The notes: a model not told the origin generated them from the letters alone. A stretch of 64,000 nucleotides of DNA from Chitinophaga pinensis (GCA_945878115.1 CAMDVD010000005.1:1-64000), one strand, 5' to 3'. Positions 7,576 to 48,907 are shown, numbered from the stretch's first letter. Numbers and translations are program-made.

Positions 7576-8174
7576 TGAAATGGAATTTGTTGGTGATAAC
7601 ACCAACAACGGCGGAAAATATCCCCATTTTCCTTTGAAATAATTGTATCACCAATAGGTGCATCATTAAAATATCCAAATTGATAAGTAGTATTTGTTGA
7701 GTCAAACTCTAGTTTGTAAATTCTTTGATCTTTTATATCTAATTCGCAATTCTCAATATATCCATTCTTGAAATACTCGAGAGAAATATCCGTACTATCA
7801 TTTATTTGAAAGCTACGGTAATAGATGTCCCAAGATCGTATCGAGCAATCACTATGTCGACTAGATGTTAAAACAGGTTTATTATTTAGATAATTCGTTT
7901 CCGTTGCGCTATAAAATGAACTATCTTCCTTCATTCTCCTATAAAATATATCACTAGAAAGTGTTAATTGATTTCGAATGTAAATATTTTCTAAGCAGAA
8001 TTTATTAGGTCTAAAAAATCTTTTAATAACAAGTGGTGTGTCCATATTTTGGTAAGAAATAATTAATTCTAAAGTGTCATGATAGCTACGTGTGCTAACT
8101 TGTAGCGGAGGATTATCAACGTTTTTGAAACTCGCAAACGAAAGCAATAAAAGGAATAGGCAAAGTAGTTTCAT
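7452..8174 (-). CDS. secreted/lipoprotein-like hypothetical, likely chimeric or truncated C-terminus
   Basis: Signal peptide MKLLCLFLLLLSFASFK; last ~40 codons are antisense to the putative antitoxin ORF. Confidence 0.55.
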   Translation of the reverse strand: MKLLCLFLLLLSFASFKNVDNPPLQVSTRSYHDTLELIISYQNMDTPLVIKRFFRPNKFCLENIYIRNQLTLSSDIFYRRMKEDSSFYSATETNYLNNKPVLTSSRHSDCSIRSWDIYYRSFQINDSTDISLEYFKNGYIENCELDIKDQRIYKLEFDSTNTTYQFGYFNDAPIGDTIISKENGDIFRRCWCYHQQIPFHYFFLLSISLRSSTAGMRTIFPLSPKTKLRLCKAASRTNFS

Positions 8175-42262: not shown

Positions 42263-42336
42263 TCTTCCTTAGCTCAGTTGGTTAGAGCATCTGACTGTTA
42301 ATCAGAGGGTCTCTGGTTCAAGTCCAGAAGGGAGAG
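42263..42336 (+). tRNA. tRNA-Asn(GTT)
   Basis: Cloverleaf: acceptor TCTTCCT/AGGGAGA, D-stem GCTC/GAGC, anticodon arm TCTGACTGTTAATCAGA, T-arm TCTGGTTCAAGTCCAGA; CCA not encoded. Confidence 0.95.
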
Positions 42337-42337
42337 C
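42290..42337 (+). repeat. att site (left), 3' part of tRNA-Asn
   Basis: 48-bp perfect direct repeat with 48454-48501. Confidence 0.93.
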
Positions 42338-42342
42338 AGACT

Positions 42343-42379
42343 AGCAAAGGGTTTCAAGCAATTGAGACCCTTTTTTTTA
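42343..42379 (+). terminator. terminator downstream of tRNA-Asn supplied by the element
   Basis: AAAGGGTTTCAA-gca-ATTGAGACCCTTTTTTTT. Confidence 0.7.
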
Positions 42380-42524
42380 TTCCATTTGCATAAAATTTGC
42401 ATAAAAAGTAGGTGTATTTTATTCGTAGTAATCATTTGAGAAGTATCCTTTTCCAACTATGAAATAGTTTACCTAATATGATATTTCTTAAAATAATTTT
42501 ATATCTTACTTCAAAATTTAAACT

Positions 42525-43034
42525 ATGAAACAATTATTAATGTTTATTCTTGTGGCTATTCCATTTTTTTGCAACTGTCAAAATTTAAAAGCACTTGACA
42601 CGAAGAACGGGTTTAGAGATATGCAATTTGGAGATAGTGACAGTAAGTTTAACGATTTAGTTGTTGATGCATACTCTTCTGACAGCTTAAGTATATTTTG
42701 TCGAAGAACAGGTGACAAACTAACAATTGGGGCATCGGAAGTATCCATTATTTATGTGTTTTACAAAAGCCAACTTAAAAATGTGGTAATTAAAACAAAG
42801 GGGTTGAAAAACAGCAGAGCTTTGTTAGATGCGCTCCAAGAAATGTATGGTAAAGGTCGACAACCCAATGAATATATTGAAGAATATTATTGGTGGGGTA
42901 AAAAAGTTACACTTGATTATGATGAAAACTCTATTTCAGGTGATGCAAAAGTCTTTATTACATCTAAAGAAATTAGCGGAAAACAAGATTTAGACAGTAA
43001 AGAAAAAGCGAAAGAAGCCAAGAATGATTTTTGA
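42525..43034 (+). CDS. secreted hypothetical protein (element cargo)
   Basis: 169 aa; signal peptide MKQLLMFILVAIPFFCNC; only plus-strand ORF in the element. Confidence 0.65.
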   Translation: MKQLLMFILVAIPFFCNCQNLKALDTKNGFRDMQFGDSDSKFNDLVVDAYSSDSLSIFCRRTGDKLTIGASEVSIIYVFYKSQLKNVVIKTKGLKNSRALLDALQEMYGKGRQPNEYIEEYYWWGKKVTLDYDENSISGDAKVFITSKEISGKQDLDSKEKAKEAKNDF

Positions 43035-43055
43035 TTATTTTAGGCTTCAAATTGT

Positions 43056-43718
43056 TTAATTAACTCGCTTTTTTTTAATCGTTGGGGTTGAAATTAGTCG
43101 TTCAATTTTTTGCAAGGTGGCAATAGGCAAACTTTGAATTTCATCAGGTGTAATTTTCATGTTGTTTATCTGTATGTAATTGTTTTGCTCAAATGCTAGG
43201 GGTTTTGGGCTTGCTTGGTCCTTGAAATACTCTAAATACACTTTACAGGCTTTAATGTCTCCTTGAATGCCTAAATTATACACAGTAGTCAACATTAGAT
43301 GGACCATGAATTTGTATTTTTCAGTTTCATGTTTATGCAAATCATGTTCTTTAAATTCTCTTAGATGCTTGTAAATGGTTTCTTCGCTTAGTCCGCTATC
43401 TTCAGAAATTTCTGTTGTTGTTGGCATCCTATTAGATTTTTGCATTAATTTACTCATGGATGCAATTACTTTCAAATGATTATTTTGCCATGTATGATTT
43501 CGCATTTGAATGTAAAAATCGTTGTCCTTTGGAATATTCATACTGTCTAAATATTCAAAAAATACTTTTATGGATTCGTCAATGTTGTATTGATTTTTAT
43601 TGGAATACGCTTCACTTATTGCATCATAAAGTTCCTTAATCCTATTGTTGATTTCCTCAACTTTTTTCAAGTTTTTGGGGTTTAATGTCTTTATTAAATT
43701 CCGTTGTGAAATTACCAT
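43056..43718 (-). CDS. HTH protein, possibly terminase-small-subunit-like
   Basis: 220 aa; TTTEISEDSGLSEETIYKHLREF HTH; C-term GDIKACKVYLEYF...NNYIQINNMKITPDEIQSLPIATLQKIERLI. Confidence 0.5.
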   Translation of the reverse strand: MVISQRNLIKTLNPKNLKKVEEINNRIKELYDAISEAYSNKNQYNIDESIKVFFEYLDSMNIPKDNDFYIQMRNHTWQNNHLKVIASMSKLMQKSNRMPTTTEISEDSGLSEETIYKHLREFKEHDLHKHETEKYKFMVHLMLTTVYNLGIQGDIKACKVYLEYFKDQASPKPLAFEQNNYIQINNMKITPDEIQSLPIATLQKIERLISTPTIKKKRVN

Positions 43719-43729
43719 TGTTATTTATT

Positions 43730-44152
43730 TTAATTATTGAAATTGATATTATACCAAATTATAAATTCATCAAATGAAGTTGCTATAAAATAATAACCAC
43801 CTGCTTTTATTATTTGTTGTTGATATTTTTTTTGTTCTTCGCTTTGGCGGTCCTTACCAATTTTGATTTCTATTTTTACACTTTTGCCTTGGATGGTTGC
43901 GCTTACATCAGCTGTACCCTTTTGCATACTGCTTTTGATATACCTGCCATTTACCCAGCGTGAAATATTATTGATTCGTTCGGCATGATGGTTTTTAAAT
44001 TTTAAAAAGTCAATAATACATTTGGTTAAACCGTTTGCCTTCATGTCTGAATGTGTATATTTTGGAATACTAATTATAGGAAATGAAGGATATTTTTCAT
44101 GTGTATACGCTTCGTGCAAACTGTTCATTAATTTTCTATTTTCTCTATGCAT
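43730..44152 (-). CDS. VRR-NUC-like nuclease
   Basis: 140 aa; YIKSSMQKGTADVSATIQGKSVKIEIKIGKDRQSEEQKKYQQQIIKAGGYYFIATSFDEF. Confidence 0.7.
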   Translation of the reverse strand: MHRENRKLMNSLHEAYTHEKYPSFPIISIPKYTHSDMKANGLTKCIIDFLKFKNHHAERINNISRWVNGRYIKSSMQKGTADVSATIQGKSVKIEIKIGKDRQSEEQKKYQQQIIKAGGYYFIATSFDEFIIWYNINFNN

Positions 44153-44321
44153 TTTTTTTTAATTGAATTGATTATGTTGATGAAAATATTTTTTCGCTTT
44201 CTATATCATCTTTTTTAAATTTCTTTTTTAAGTATCTTGTTTAATACCTTATTACAGTATCTTATTTAAGGTGCTGTTATCTTGCTGTTGTGGATGCGGT
44301 TATGTTATAAGCAGGTTGTTG

Positions 44322-45029
44322 TTAAGTTGCTGTGGTTGGTGCTGTTAAATTCAAATCATTTTTTGCCTTTATTAATGCATCCCTTTTAAGATTTTTTAGC
44401 TTATTATTCTTAGTGCTTTTTTTGCCATTTAAACAAACTTTTGCAAGTACTTCGTGTGATACTGTAAAAGATAAATAGAACCCTCTACAATGGTCTGCAA
44501 ATAGCTTTAAACCCCAATTCATTTGCAATTCTAATAGGACCTTGTCGATATGATATCGTTGCAAGTATTTATTTTGAATAGGGTTTAAAAAACCAGGCAC
44601 TTCCTTTATTGTACTATAGCCAAACATACGCGCATGAATAAATGCTTTGTTTGTCTTGCAATAGGGCTTTGTTCCTAATATTGAGCGGACCGCGCAAAAG
44701 GTGCAAAAGGTGGCAATTTGAAATTCATCTTTTGAATTCTTGTAATAATCAAAAATAATGTCCTTATGTATTCCAGTAGTTGGCGTATTCGATGAAATAC
44801 TATTTGCGATCAGCTTGAAATTCTCAATACTTTTCCTTGCATTTCCTAATGTTATGCCTATTTTCTCGAAGGCTACATAATTTAATATTTCAGTATTGAT
44901 TTGGCTGTGTTCCCTTTGCGCCCTTCGATAAATTGAATAATCAAAAATATTATTCATACAATCTTTATGGTCTATGAATGCGTTTTTAATCAAAGCAATT
45001 GGAAAGTTTAAATACTTTTCTTTATCCAT
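44322..45029 (-). CDS. hypothetical protein of integrative element
   Basis: 235-aa ORF; overlaps the next gene by 8 nt. Confidence 0.55.
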   Translation of the reverse strand: MDKEKYLNFPIALIKNAFIDHKDCMNNIFDYSIYRRAQREHSQINTEILNYVAFEKIGITLGNARKSIENFKLIANSISSNTPTTGIHKDIIFDYYKNSKDEFQIATFCTFCAVRSILGTKPYCKTNKAFIHARMFGYSTIKEVPGFLNPIQNKYLQRYHIDKVLLELQMNWGLKLFADHCRGFYLSFTVSHEVLAKVCLNGKKSTKNNKLKNLKRDALIKAKNDLNLTAPTTAT

Positions 45030-45336
45030 TTGCGAACAATTCTAATTGGTTATTTTTTGTTGCAAATTGTTCATTGGTTGTGTAGATATTAGCAATGTGT
45101 TTAGTAATACTGCAATACTTTTTACCGACTATGAATAATTTATTGCTCTGTCTCAACATTCTACAATACCAACAAATATTTTCTCTCATTATTCCTGTTG
45201 CATTGTCGCATTCCTTCATAGTTTTAGGACCTTCATAAAGTGATTGAAATACTTTTTGTAATTGGTCCAAATGTTGATTACTTTCGCCTTGATTTTCATT
45301 GGGGGTGTGAATGTTACTACGCATTTGTACCTCCAA
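45022..45336 (-). CDS. winged-helix-like phage/element protein
   Basis: 104 aa; GPKTMKECDNATGIMRENICWYCRMLRQSNKLFIVGKKYCSITKHIANIYTTN. Confidence 0.55.
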   Translation of the reverse strand: MEVQMRSNIHTPNENQGESNQHLDQLQKVFQSLYEGPKTMKECDNATGIMRENICWYCRMLRQSNKLFIVGKKYCSITKHIANIYTTNEQFATKNNQLELFANG

Positions 45337-45676
45337 TTTTCTTTTTAGAAACTAGAAAGCTGTCAGCTGTTGAAGTTGTTTCTTCTTGTAGTTCCGCTTT
45401 GGTTTTGCGCCTGTGGCTTTGTAGCCAAATGTCAATTTCATCTTTACTAAAGATTAATTTTTTGCCCTGCTTCATGTTGGGAATTTTCCCAGTATGAACG
45501 AGAGAGTAAATAGTAGCCTTCACTGGATGGTGTGGCAGGTATTCGCAAAGTTGGTTAATGTCTAACCATTCATTTGCTTTGACTTGTTTTGAGTTATTCA
45601 AAACAAATTCTTTAATCAATCGCACATCTTCTTTGAGTGCGCTAAGTGCCTCTGGCATTTCATTAAATGTAATCAT
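45317..45676 (-). CDS. helix-turn-helix (excisionase/AlpA-like) DNA-binding protein
   Basis: 119 aa; WLDINQLCEYLPHHPVKATIYSLVHTGKIPNMKQGKKLIFSKDEIDIWL. Confidence 0.85.
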   Translation of the reverse strand: MITFNEMPEALSALKEDVRLIKEFVLNNSKQVKANEWLDINQLCEYLPHHPVKATIYSLVHTGKIPNMKQGKKLIFSKDEIDIWLQSHRRKTKAELQEETTSTADSFLVSKKKIGGTNA

Positions 45677-45767
45677 TACTATAATTTTTTGTAATGTTAC
45701 AAGTATGATTATAGGCTAGAATGATATTCCTATTTTTCCTCCAATTCTACACGAAATCTACTCTTTT

Positions 45768-46982
45768 CTACTTGTTATTTTTATTTTTTCTTTGTTTTTT
45801 AAATTCTGCTTTTCGCCAATTCTTGCATACATATTCAGCACTTGTAAACCCTTCAAAATAATCACTTAATAACGATGCGTATTCTTTTGCACTTCCTCTT
45901 ATAGAACCGCTTTCTACATAGAACATTGCAAATACAAGCATTATTTCTTCCTTCTGAATATCATTGAAATTATATTTTACCGTTGGAGGCTTCATGCGTT
46001 GAAATGCAGAGTATAGGAATTTTTCTATAATATTTTTGTTGGCATATCTTTTAAGACCATTCATAAAATGTTCTTTAACTTCATTGGGTTCCCTACGATT
46101 AAAAATGTTCTCCGTTAATGGAATATTTGGAGAATCCATAATTGCGTTATCCGCATTTTCAACTTTAAAAGCAAATAGCTTTAACTTTTCAGCATTATAA
46201 TTTGTTTCAATTCTTTCATAAAATTCGTTAATAGTTTCATAGTAGTATGATTTCTCAAAGTATAAGTTGCTTTGCCTTAAAGTTGAACGATAAGTTACCA
46301 TGATATTGCGAAATAAGTTTAGCATTCCTAAGCAATCCTCAAGATTTTTGTTTGCAATTAGAAATTCAAAAAAACGTTCAAAATCAGTTAGCATCTTTTC
46401 TATGTTATATCTTGCTATTTTGATTTCGATTATAAGATTTACATTTCTTTTTAAATGTTCTGTATCTATAAGGAAATTGTTATTTGTTATTGTGACAAAC
46501 ACATCAATAAGTAATGAATACCAGTCCGTTTTGTATTTTTCCTCAAAGTATTTAAACCTTTCGCGAATATATTCCTTCATGGAATTATTAATAGAGTCCT
46601 TTTTAAGTTCAGTGTAACCACTTCCTTTTGAACGCCATGTATTAAAAAATTCATCTTTTGGCAATTCTGTAATTTCTCTAAAATGGTATAAAAAAACTAA
46701 CCATTGTTCAAGTAGTAATATTTTAAATTCCAAATCCTTTGGTGTTCCAAAATCATCAGGTAATGAAATTGCTGTATCATAAAAATCATCTATAGCTTTT
46801 TCTAAACTTACAATAAATTTTTTGCTTTTCTTAATATGCCACTCAGTGAAATTAAAATCATTTATAGTGGGAAATTCAGATTTAAACTCCCCATACTTTG
46901 AGTTAAAAAAAACGTCAAATTCTTTGCTAGTTGTAGGTATAAAATACTCATTGACTTGCTTAAGTATATTTTTCATTTTCAC
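45768..46982 (-). CDS. hypothetical protein abutting the integrase
   Basis: 404-aa ORF, GTG/ATG start directly after integrase stop. Confidence 0.6.
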   Translation of the reverse strand: MKMKNILKQVNEYFIPTTSKEFDVFFNSKYGEFKSEFPTINDFNFTEWHIKKSKKFIVSLEKAIDDFYDTAISLPDDFGTPKDLEFKILLLEQWLVFLYHFREITELPKDEFFNTWRSKGSGYTELKKDSINNSMKEYIRERFKYFEEKYKTDWYSLLIDVFVTITNNNFLIDTEHLKRNVNLIIEIKIARYNIEKMLTDFERFFEFLIANKNLEDCLGMLNLFRNIMVTYRSTLRQSNLYFEKSYYYETINEFYERIETNYNAEKLKLFAFKVENADNAIMDSPNIPLTENIFNRREPNEVKEHFMNGLKRYANKNIIEKFLYSAFQRMKPPTVKYNFNDIQKEEIMLVFAMFYVESGSIRGSAKEYASLLSDYFEGFTSAEYVCKNWRKAEFKKQRKNKNNK

Positions 46983-48287
46983 TTATTGTTGTGTAAAGTT
47001 CATCATACTTTTTGAAATTTCCTTTTTCATAGCATCTGGGAAACCACTAAAATAATTATCTGTTGTTGATAGGCTAGAATGTCCTAATGCTTTACTTACA
47101 AATACCATGCTTGCGCCATGGTCTGTTATTGCATTGGTGGCAAAGGAATGACGGGCGTAATACGTGCCAATATTGCCAGTAATGCCAACACTGTTAGCCA
47201 ATGCCTTTAAATGTTGGTTTATGAAACGCACAAAATTATGTTTCGCCCTAAAATTTTGGTCGGGGGTGTTGTCATCATTCAACACATCAAAAATTAATTG
47301 CTTTGGACTTTTATTTTTATTGCCATATTTCTCAATAATACTTTGTACGTATTCGCTTATAAACACTTCAATTTGCCTTGGTTTGTTTTTGGCTGTATTC
47401 TTAGTCTTCTCACGAATAAAATAGAAATATTCGCCCTTAATATCCCTATAACGAAGGTTTACAATGTCAGCAACATTCATGCCATTACAATTGTAACTCA
47501 TAAAGAAAAAATCTTTCGCTTTTTGCTGTTCGGGGTTGCTAGGGGTGGCAAAAAATAATGTATTCAATTCTTCTTTGGTAAGTGCTTTTTTAGTATTGCT
47601 TCCATTAGGTATAAAATATTTGTTTTTATCCTTGCTATTTTGTGAGAAGGGATAGTTAGAAATGTCGATAATTCCGTTTGTAATCGCATAATTAAACATT
47701 ACGCGCATCGCGCGCAAATAAATGCCTATAGTTGTTTTGCTTATGTCGCTATCAAGTAAATACTTTTCAAATTGCTTTAAATATTTAGGTGTGACAGCTG
47801 TAATTGTAAGTTCATTTTTGCCTACATATTCAGCCAATTTCTTTTTGCTACAATTATAACTGCTTGCAGTTCCCAGACGTCCTTCGCTTATTAAATCATT
47901 TATAGCAGTATCATAAATATTAAAAATATTGGTCTCAATGGTATCTGCTTTACGTTGGTAAAATTTCTTTTCAAACTCTTCAAATGAAAAAGGCTTGATT
48001 TTTTCGGCTACACTCTTCGCCCTATTCAAATATTCCTTGATTAGGTTTCTATCTGGGTCGTCTTTCTTTCGTGGTTTCTTGCTTTCCCAAATACTTGTAA
48101 ATTCTTCTTTAGTGTAATCTATGGCTTCGATTGTTTCAGTTTCTTTACTAAGTTTTCCAATTGAGTAGTATTTATTCCTTTGAAGGACCTTGCTATACAC
48201 TTGAATTTTTACTGGGTATTTCCCACTTATTTTTTCACGTCTAAAATCTAGGACCACACTTGCTAGGATTTCAATTTTTTCAGCCAT
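46983..48287 (-). CDS. site-specific tyrosine recombinase/integrase (Bacteroidota element type)
   Basis: 434 aa; FFFMSYNCNGMNVADIVNLRYRDI, YYARHSFATNAITDHGASMVFVSKALGHSSLSTTDNYFSGFPD. Confidence 0.95.
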   Translation of the reverse strand: MAEKIEILASVVLDFRREKISGKYPVKIQVYSKVLQRNKYYSIGKLSKETETIEAIDYTKEEFTSIWESKKPRKKDDPDRNLIKEYLNRAKSVAEKIKPFSFEEFEKKFYQRKADTIETNIFNIYDTAINDLISEGRLGTASSYNCSKKKLAEYVGKNELTITAVTPKYLKQFEKYLLDSDISKTTIGIYLRAMRVMFNYAITNGIIDISNYPFSQNSKDKNKYFIPNGSNTKKALTKEELNTLFFATPSNPEQQKAKDFFFMSYNCNGMNVADIVNLRYRDIKGEYFYFIREKTKNTAKNKPRQIEVFISEYVQSIIEKYGNKNKSPKQLIFDVLNDDNTPDQNFRAKHNFVRFINQHLKALANSVGITGNIGTYYARHSFATNAITDHGASMVFVSKALGHSSLSTTDNYFSGFPDAMKKEISKSMMNFTQQ

Positions 48288-48453
48288 TACTTTTACATTT
48301 TATGCAAATCTAATCATTTGCATAAAATTTGCATAATAATATTGCTTATTGTTACAAAAAATACAAATAATATGAATGTAGTAAAATCAATGCTTATAGC
48401 TATATTTGCTAATCATAACAAAGAAAAGAGGCAATGTTAATATAGCTTTATTT

Positions 48454-48501
48454 CTGACTGTTAATCAGAGGGTCTCTGGTTCAAGTCCAGAAGGGAGAGC
48501 C
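48454..48501 (+). repeat. att site (right), displaced tRNA-Asn 3' fragment
   Basis: TCTGACTGTTAATCAGAGGGTCTCTGGTTCAAGTCCAGAAGGGAGAGC, identical to 42290-42337; no 5' half of tRNA. Confidence 0.95.
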
Positions 48502-48605: not shown

Positions 48606-48907
48606 TTGCTGCTTCTCCTTCTTTACAATGTAGTAATTTTAGACGAAAATGGAAAACAAACTCCAAATACAGGACTTCTAATAAACTTACTTTCAAGTTT
48701 AAGTGAATTCTCTTACCATCAAAACCGAGAAAAGATTTTAAATGGTACTGACTTAGCCAAGAAACAAGGGAAATATTCAGGAAGACACTCAAATTCAACT
48801 GAAACACACGAAAAGTATTTGGCAAAAACAAAAAAAAATGATTGAGATGATTAGACAAGGAAATAGTGTTAGAAGTTTTCTAATTGGTGTAATGTCAAAT
48901 TTTTAAT
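48606..48907 (+). pseudogene. serine recombinase (resolvase/invertase) remnant, frameshifted
   Basis: SLSEFSYHQNREKILNGTDLAKKQGKYSGRHSNSTETHEKYLAKTKK then, in another frame, MIEMIRQGNSVRSFLIGV; shift at an A-homopolymer near 48832. Confidence 0.65.

Follow-up and report, generated by a model that had tools for sequence, protein, structure and literature searches.

A candidate phage satellite in a tRNA-Asn gene of Chitinophaga pinensis and its relatives in Bacteroidota

Phage satellites have been described for Proteobacteria, Firmicutes, Vibrionaceae, cyanobacteria and Actinobacteria. NBU1, an integrative mobilizable element (IME) of Bacteroidota, is small, integrates in a tRNA gene, and carries a tyrosine integrase. 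The subject of this report is a small island in the tRNA-Asn gene of Chitinophaga pinensis, contained in a stretch of 64,000 nucleotides (GCA_945878115.1 CAMDVD010000005.1:1-64000), the whole of which we call the window. We take a phage satellite to be a discrete mobile element that is not a phage, that has its own integration machinery, that carries a protein or signal favoring its packaging by a phage, and whose DNA travels in the particles of a helper on which it depends, as in the defining passages of PMC11389934. Phage-inducible chromosomal minimalist islands (PICMIs) of Vibrionaceae adjoin fis, and their packaging seems to need a DNA signal only, according to the excerpts of PMC10803314 and PMC11389934 drawn on here. 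The portion of the latter review that names known satellite families gives none in Bacteroidota, and text searches of the open literature, with subscription papers outside their scope, found none either.

We consider it likely that the island belongs to an undescribed family of Bacteroidota phage satellites, apparently the first in this phylum within the open literature searched. A sequence-only reading of the window had proposed either a minimal Bacteroidota satellite or a new type of IME. The first proposal is supported, given that the protein encoded by the leftmost minus-strand gene, c0, resembles terminase small subunits (TerS), that undoubted TerS genes fill or flank the c0 slot in relatives, that no relaxase was found, and that the replication cassette is common to a tailed phage; the second is not.

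Island boundaries and gene content

The spacing of two identical 48-bp direct repeats defines an island of 6163 bp. It has seven genes on the minus strand, of which the integrase gene is the rightmost and c0 the leftmost, and a single open reading frame (ORF) of 169 amino acids (aa) on the plus strand. The features are as follows (att, attachment site; HTH, helix-turn-helix; wHTH, winged HTH; L numbers denote loci of this analysis):

42263..42337, plus strand: intact tRNA-Asn (gtt), the target site (ARAGORN)
42290..42337, plus strand: left att copy, the 3' end of tRNA-Asn (48-bp exact repeat)
42384..42406: tandem 11-bp repeat ATTTGCATAAA inside the left end, putative integrase arm site (TRF, period 11)
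42525..43034, plus strand (opposite to the other genes): 169-aa signal-peptide/lipoprotein-like accessory ORF of no family; homologue (cluster c32) in the same place in L025
43056..43718, minus strand: c0, TerS-like, with a wHTH, a GDxxAxKxYLE helix and a QNNYIQIN tail (phrog_24579, hhalign, fold)
43730..44152, minus strand: nuc140, VRR-NUC-like nuclease (phrog_824, 1e-8; phrog_5702 Holliday junction resolvase, 7.1e-7)
44208..44269: array of 13-bp iterons, a candidate origin of replication (TRF period 13, 4.8 copies)
44322..45029, minus strand: orf235, putative replication initiator in the Rep slot, followed by 13-bp iterons in relatives
45022..45336, minus strand: wHTH-like 104-aa protein (cluster c3, 11 loci; L075 relative, HTH_Crp_2 0.021)
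45317..45676, minus strand: xis, excisionase-like HTH_17 protein (HTH_17 2.5e-10; phrog_66 excisionase 6.9e-6)
45768..46982, minus strand: X, 404 aa, variable slot, no recognized family; C-terminal part related to the X of L045
46983..48287, minus strand: tyrosine integrase (Phage_int_SAM_5 2.5e-18, Phage_integrase 5.8e-13)
48316..48336: tandem 11-bp repeat inside the right end, putative integrase arm site (TRF)
48453..48500, plus strand: right att copy (48-bp exact repeat)

The target is the sole tRNA that ARAGORN found in the window. The 3.58-Mb assembly contains the att 48-mer at these two places alone and the reversed 48-mer, used as a control, nowhere, which excludes a chance origin of the repeats. 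An empty site could not be demonstrated by a search with the right flank within the genus, because this flank is not conserved there. The tandem 11-bp repeats at both ends look like integrase arm sites, and the same pattern was found inside both ends of several relatives. Just beyond the right end (window 48606-48845) is what appears to be a remnant, an ORF that by eye looks like the C-terminal portion of a serine resolvase.

The exact att repeats, the integrase beside the right end and the excisionase-like HTH protein had all been recognized in the sequence-only reading, and they stand: both proteins exceed their Pfam cut-offs. The winged-helix-like ORF of that reading is best placed at 45022-45336, by homology and position, and 44322-45029 encodes a different protein, in which no domain was recognized.

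Packaging protein and replication cassette

The proposed resemblance of c0 to TerS was borne out at the level of the family. The nearest relative of the window's c0 (L020, 60% identical) matches TerS phrog_24579 at 1.4e-6, and 31 of 46 family members match this PHROG at ≤0.01, the best at 8.9e-7. In hhalign, the c0 profile aligned with the TerS-like protein of a viral contig (L077; probability 94%, E 8.7e-8) across the HTH and the GDxxAAKLYLE helix, and the L077 protein itself matches phrog_24579 at 1.6e-9. The AlphaFold model of c0 (pLDDT 83) has a single significant viral match in BFVD, a DNA-packaging protein small subunit (E 6.6e-5), with a low TM-score of 0.37/0.45. No significant match to c0 was found in the PDB by sequence or fold, and plasmids gave one irrelevant archaeal match. 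Genomic context is stronger evidence than these matches: in L120, the same backbone has a Terminase_2 protein (2.4e-14) filling the c0 slot, and in L027, a Terminase_4 protein (1.6e-23; TerS phrog_83, 8.5e-37) adjoins c0.

The nuclease proposed for 43730-44152 falls below the cut-off for Pfam VRR_NUC (E 0.17), yet its match to phrog_824 and the G-T-A-D / E-x-K / Q positions, which are invariant among relatives, support a VRR-NUC-like enzyme. It is 46% identical to the nuclease of the phage contig L123, with the catalytic positions unchanged. The neighboring orf235 has no known domain in library scans, and its predicted fold (pLDDT 65) has no PDB match. A 13-bp iteron array lies directly 3' of orf235 in the window and in six other loci (L020, L022, L057, L123, L124 and the lone L018), and period 13 stands out against first-order shuffles at P ≤0.003 in each locus. 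Over all periods, the window's array has P = 0.054, and it is convincing mainly because period 13 recurs at the other orf235 loci. Position and iterons together suggest that orf235 is an initiator and that the pair forms a Rep-iteron replicon. At L018:9652-10602, a solitary chromosomal orf235 has its own 13-bp iteron array and no surrounding element.

The same arrangement is found in a phage. L123 (IMGVR_UViG_3300001735_000062) is a tailed-phage contig with an SPP1 portal (6.8e-45), Terminase_2 (2.1e-29), terminase large subunit (TerL) and PhageMin_Tail (1e-26), in which xis, nuclease, orf235 and 13-bp iterons lie directly upstream of portal, TerS and TerL.

Relatives, circular forms and solo genes

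A c0 profile search recovered 54 loci in GTDB genomes and four more from IMG/VR; the GTDB loci are all labelled Bacteroidota save one metagenome-assembled genome labelled 'bacterium' (L047). Among 200 related genomes, c0 and orf235 are each present in five, and the 404-aa X only in this one. Direct repeats fixed both ends of 14 integrated elements, the window's included, all in Bacteroidota and 4.9-10.3 kb long; repeats of just 13 bp (L025, L057) were accepted because they are located on tRNA 3' ends. Integration sites are of at least six kinds, namely tRNA-Asn, Gln, Ala, Val or Arg or the 3' end of mnmE; for L023, no host gene was recognized. Neighbor clustering gave the common order int - variable X - xis (HTH_17) - (wHTH) - replication cassette - c0. 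The cassettes vary: some pair an AAA_25 helicase with a DUF6371 primase or DUF3987 with BT4734/PriCT_2, others have a rolling-circle Phage_CRI protein or a D5-type helicase, and others again have orf235, in some cases together with the nuclease. Between the window and L013, an element at the same site in a sister species, the DNA of nuclease, iterons and orf235 is mostly 89-99% identical, the far end of orf235 is 75-82% and c0 only 65-83% identical; the two X genes are not related to each other, nor are the lipoprotein-like genes. This pattern points to cassette exchange among elements, and c0 may adapt to helpers. Other small proteins occupy the c0 slot at L118:3952-4545 and L119:6816-7164, the latter TerS-like by eye.

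X proteins of different elements share N- or C-terminal parts in varying combinations; the C-terminal part of the window's X is 31% identical to the X of L045 over 108 aa (blastp, 4e-9). An RteC-like regulator was considered for X and rejected: in hhalign comparisons with four RteC proteins, no probability exceeded 8.6%, and that of the window's X was 1.0%. For defense genes, PADLOC yielded just weak HTH-type matches.

Several relatives appear to excise as circles. L074 (6683 bp) has a permuted gene order; its X ORF of 229 aa continues from one end of the contig into the other, and its only att core, of the mnmE type, lies between c0 and int, the expected place of attP. L118 and L119 share the backbone and carry terminal repeats of 127 bp and 114 bp, respectively, and L036 has an attP-type junction at its start (1-119) and an attR at its end (8049-8167). 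The L036 arrangement corresponds to a circle plus an integrated copy, or to tandem copies, within one assembly. L075 (1-9623) is a 9.5-kb circular IMG/VR contig with a 123-bp end repeat, which encodes a Phage_capsid protein (4e-14), c0, int, xis, wHTH and a 722-aa protein matching the tape measure of Cellulophaga phi46:1; neither portal nor TerL was recognized in it. It is possibly a capsid-carrying Bacteroidota satellite. A search for relatives of its capsid found only the capsid itself in IMG/VR; 299 genomes of the order gave a single match, weak and partial, and phages gave only distant matches, Salinibacter and other.

The c0 gene also occurs alone in chromosomes (L024, L026, L028, L029, L032-L035, L039, L044, L046, L048, L052, L053, L055, L059, L063-L065, L068, L069 and L071), with several copies per genome and no int or rep. 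On one side of most solo copies is a non-coding block that is conserved among them and contains GGTTTACAC-like repeats in tandem, together with TTGATTATCAATAA. They nest among element c0s in two clades of the c0 tree and therefore look derived.

The satellite reading and its alternatives

The island has the attributes of a discrete mobile element with its own integration machinery (att repeats, integrase, a recurrent architecture and no virion genes), and c0, with undoubted TerS in relatives, would be the protein that favors packaging. As a satellite, it would work as follows. When an infecting or induced phage gives the signal, the integrase and the HTH protein would excise the island as a circle; we infer this step for the window's element. 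The orf235 protein would bind the iterons and initiate replication, and the nuclease would process replication intermediates. Together with the helper's TerL, c0 would form a hybrid terminase that directs element DNA into helper capsids, and the integrase would reinsert the element at tRNA-Asn in the next cell. X (45768-46982) and the 169-aa ORF may be accessory, possibly serving helper interaction or as cargo.

Several observations weigh against this account. On its own, the window's c0 matches phrog_24579 weakly (0.0041), and tblastn found no match to c0 in 50,697 phage records. Circular forms are known for relatives alone, and L075 is one metagenomic contig. No clear TerL was found in the host genome, and no helper phage was identified; this genome has only a weak phrog_2 match, in a 336-aa frame that is RuvB-sized and that we judged not to be TerL. 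Some c0 relatives, mainly in Mucilaginibacter, are chromosomal genes outside any element, indicating that c0 can persist without one, and L027 carries a second TerS beside c0; given both, c0 might act otherwise than in packaging.

Relaxase or Mob proteins were found neither among the island's proteins nor among 53 accessory proteins drawn from about 24 of its relatives, and library scans of the island's proteins found no capsid, portal or TerL gene. The sequence-only reading had noted the absence of capsid, portal and relaxase genes, and it would have given up the satellite for a c0 lacking a terminase-like fold in a family with a relaxase or oriT; the profile and predicted fold of c0 are TerS-like. 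We regard as unlikely an IME without its own relaxase, conjugated through an oriT recognized by the relaxase of a co-resident integrative conjugative element, with c0 as a DNA-binding regulator or origin-binding protein. In its favor, Bacteroidota IMEs, too, typically have tRNA sites and genes for integration, excision and replication; a gene of the RteC family, which is characteristic of conjugative elements in this phylum, lies elsewhere in the genome (L114, G000:C29:34271-34600); the DUF6371 primases found in relatives are present on Bacteroides plasmids as well; and c0 is partly similar to DnaD/replication-initiation PHROGs. Against it stand genuine TerS genes on the shared backbone (L120, L027), a replication cassette common to tailed phage L123, and a member with capsid and tape-measure genes (L075). 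The L114 gene itself suggests a separate conjugative or mobilizable element in the host genome.

That 14 elements at different sites repeat this reduced layout, and that relatives are found as free circles, makes it very unlikely that the island is the immobile early region of a temperate phage whose late genes were lost; the phage-like nuclease and orf235 and the lack of virion genes would fit such a remnant, but all genes are intact and the att repeats are perfect. The solo c0 genes kept in Mucilaginibacter chromosomes with conserved repeat blocks fit a trans-acting DNA-binding role, as would be expected if the island were an integrative plasmid-like replicon with c0 acting mainly as a decoy small terminase against phages and packaging secondary or absent. 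Their derived position within the element c0 tree speaks against this, and we give it hardly any credence.

Beyond the single island, we lean toward an undescribed, phylum-wide satellite family of Bacteroidota made of exchangeable cassettes. One int-X-xis backbone would carry replication modules of several unrelated kinds and TerS of at least three types, some members would have capsid or tape-measure genes, and some terS genes would later have become solo chromosomal genes with repeat blocks of their own. If the satellite reading is true, it would explain many small islands in tRNA genes and mnmE that are unexplained, in a phylum whose members are major parts of gut, soil and freshwater communities. 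It would also add very small candidate satellites (4.9-6.2 kb) and open TerS swapping on a fixed backbone to study. Cultured carriers exist (Pontibacter, for one P. burrus BT327 with the element in L054, and Mucilaginibacter), which makes tests practical.

Comparison with known systems

Charybdis elements (PMC12324425) were considered as relatives and set aside as unrelated, having no terminase and archaeal hosts. NBU1-type IMEs are alike in size, tRNA site and tyrosine integrase, and differ from the island and its relatives, which have no relaxase gene. The phage contig L123 shares xis, nuclease, orf235 and 13-bp iterons, whereas portal, TerS, TerL and tape measure are in the phage only. Capsid-forming phage-inducible chromosomal islands (cfPICIs) have an HK97-type capsid and packaging set that is absent from the island; L075 alone shares an HK97-type capsid protein of its own, adjoining c0.

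PICMIs are likewise very small, with integrase, regulator and replication genes and no capsid remodelling genes (PMC10803314), but members of the island's family have a gene for a TerS-like protein and integrate at the ends of tRNA genes or mnmE, here tRNA-Asn, rather than next to fis. With phage-inducible chromosomal islands (PICIs) of the Staphylococcus aureus pathogenicity island (SaPI) type, the island shares an integrase at one end, an excisionase-like protein, replication genes (the initiator assigned from position and iterons), a terS homologue, integration at a tRNA or gene end, and the lack of a full virion set. It differs in its size of just 6.2 kb, in a replication cassette and TerS of other families, in its Bacteroidota host, and in having no recognized capsid-size gene and no stl/alpA-type divergent control region, the 169-aa ORF being the only one on the other strand and no Stl-like repressor or AlpA being recognized. 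We do not file the island under either name, since it was checked for a PICI control region and for the PICMI site and shows neither; by analogy, it would work like a PICI or a PICMI.

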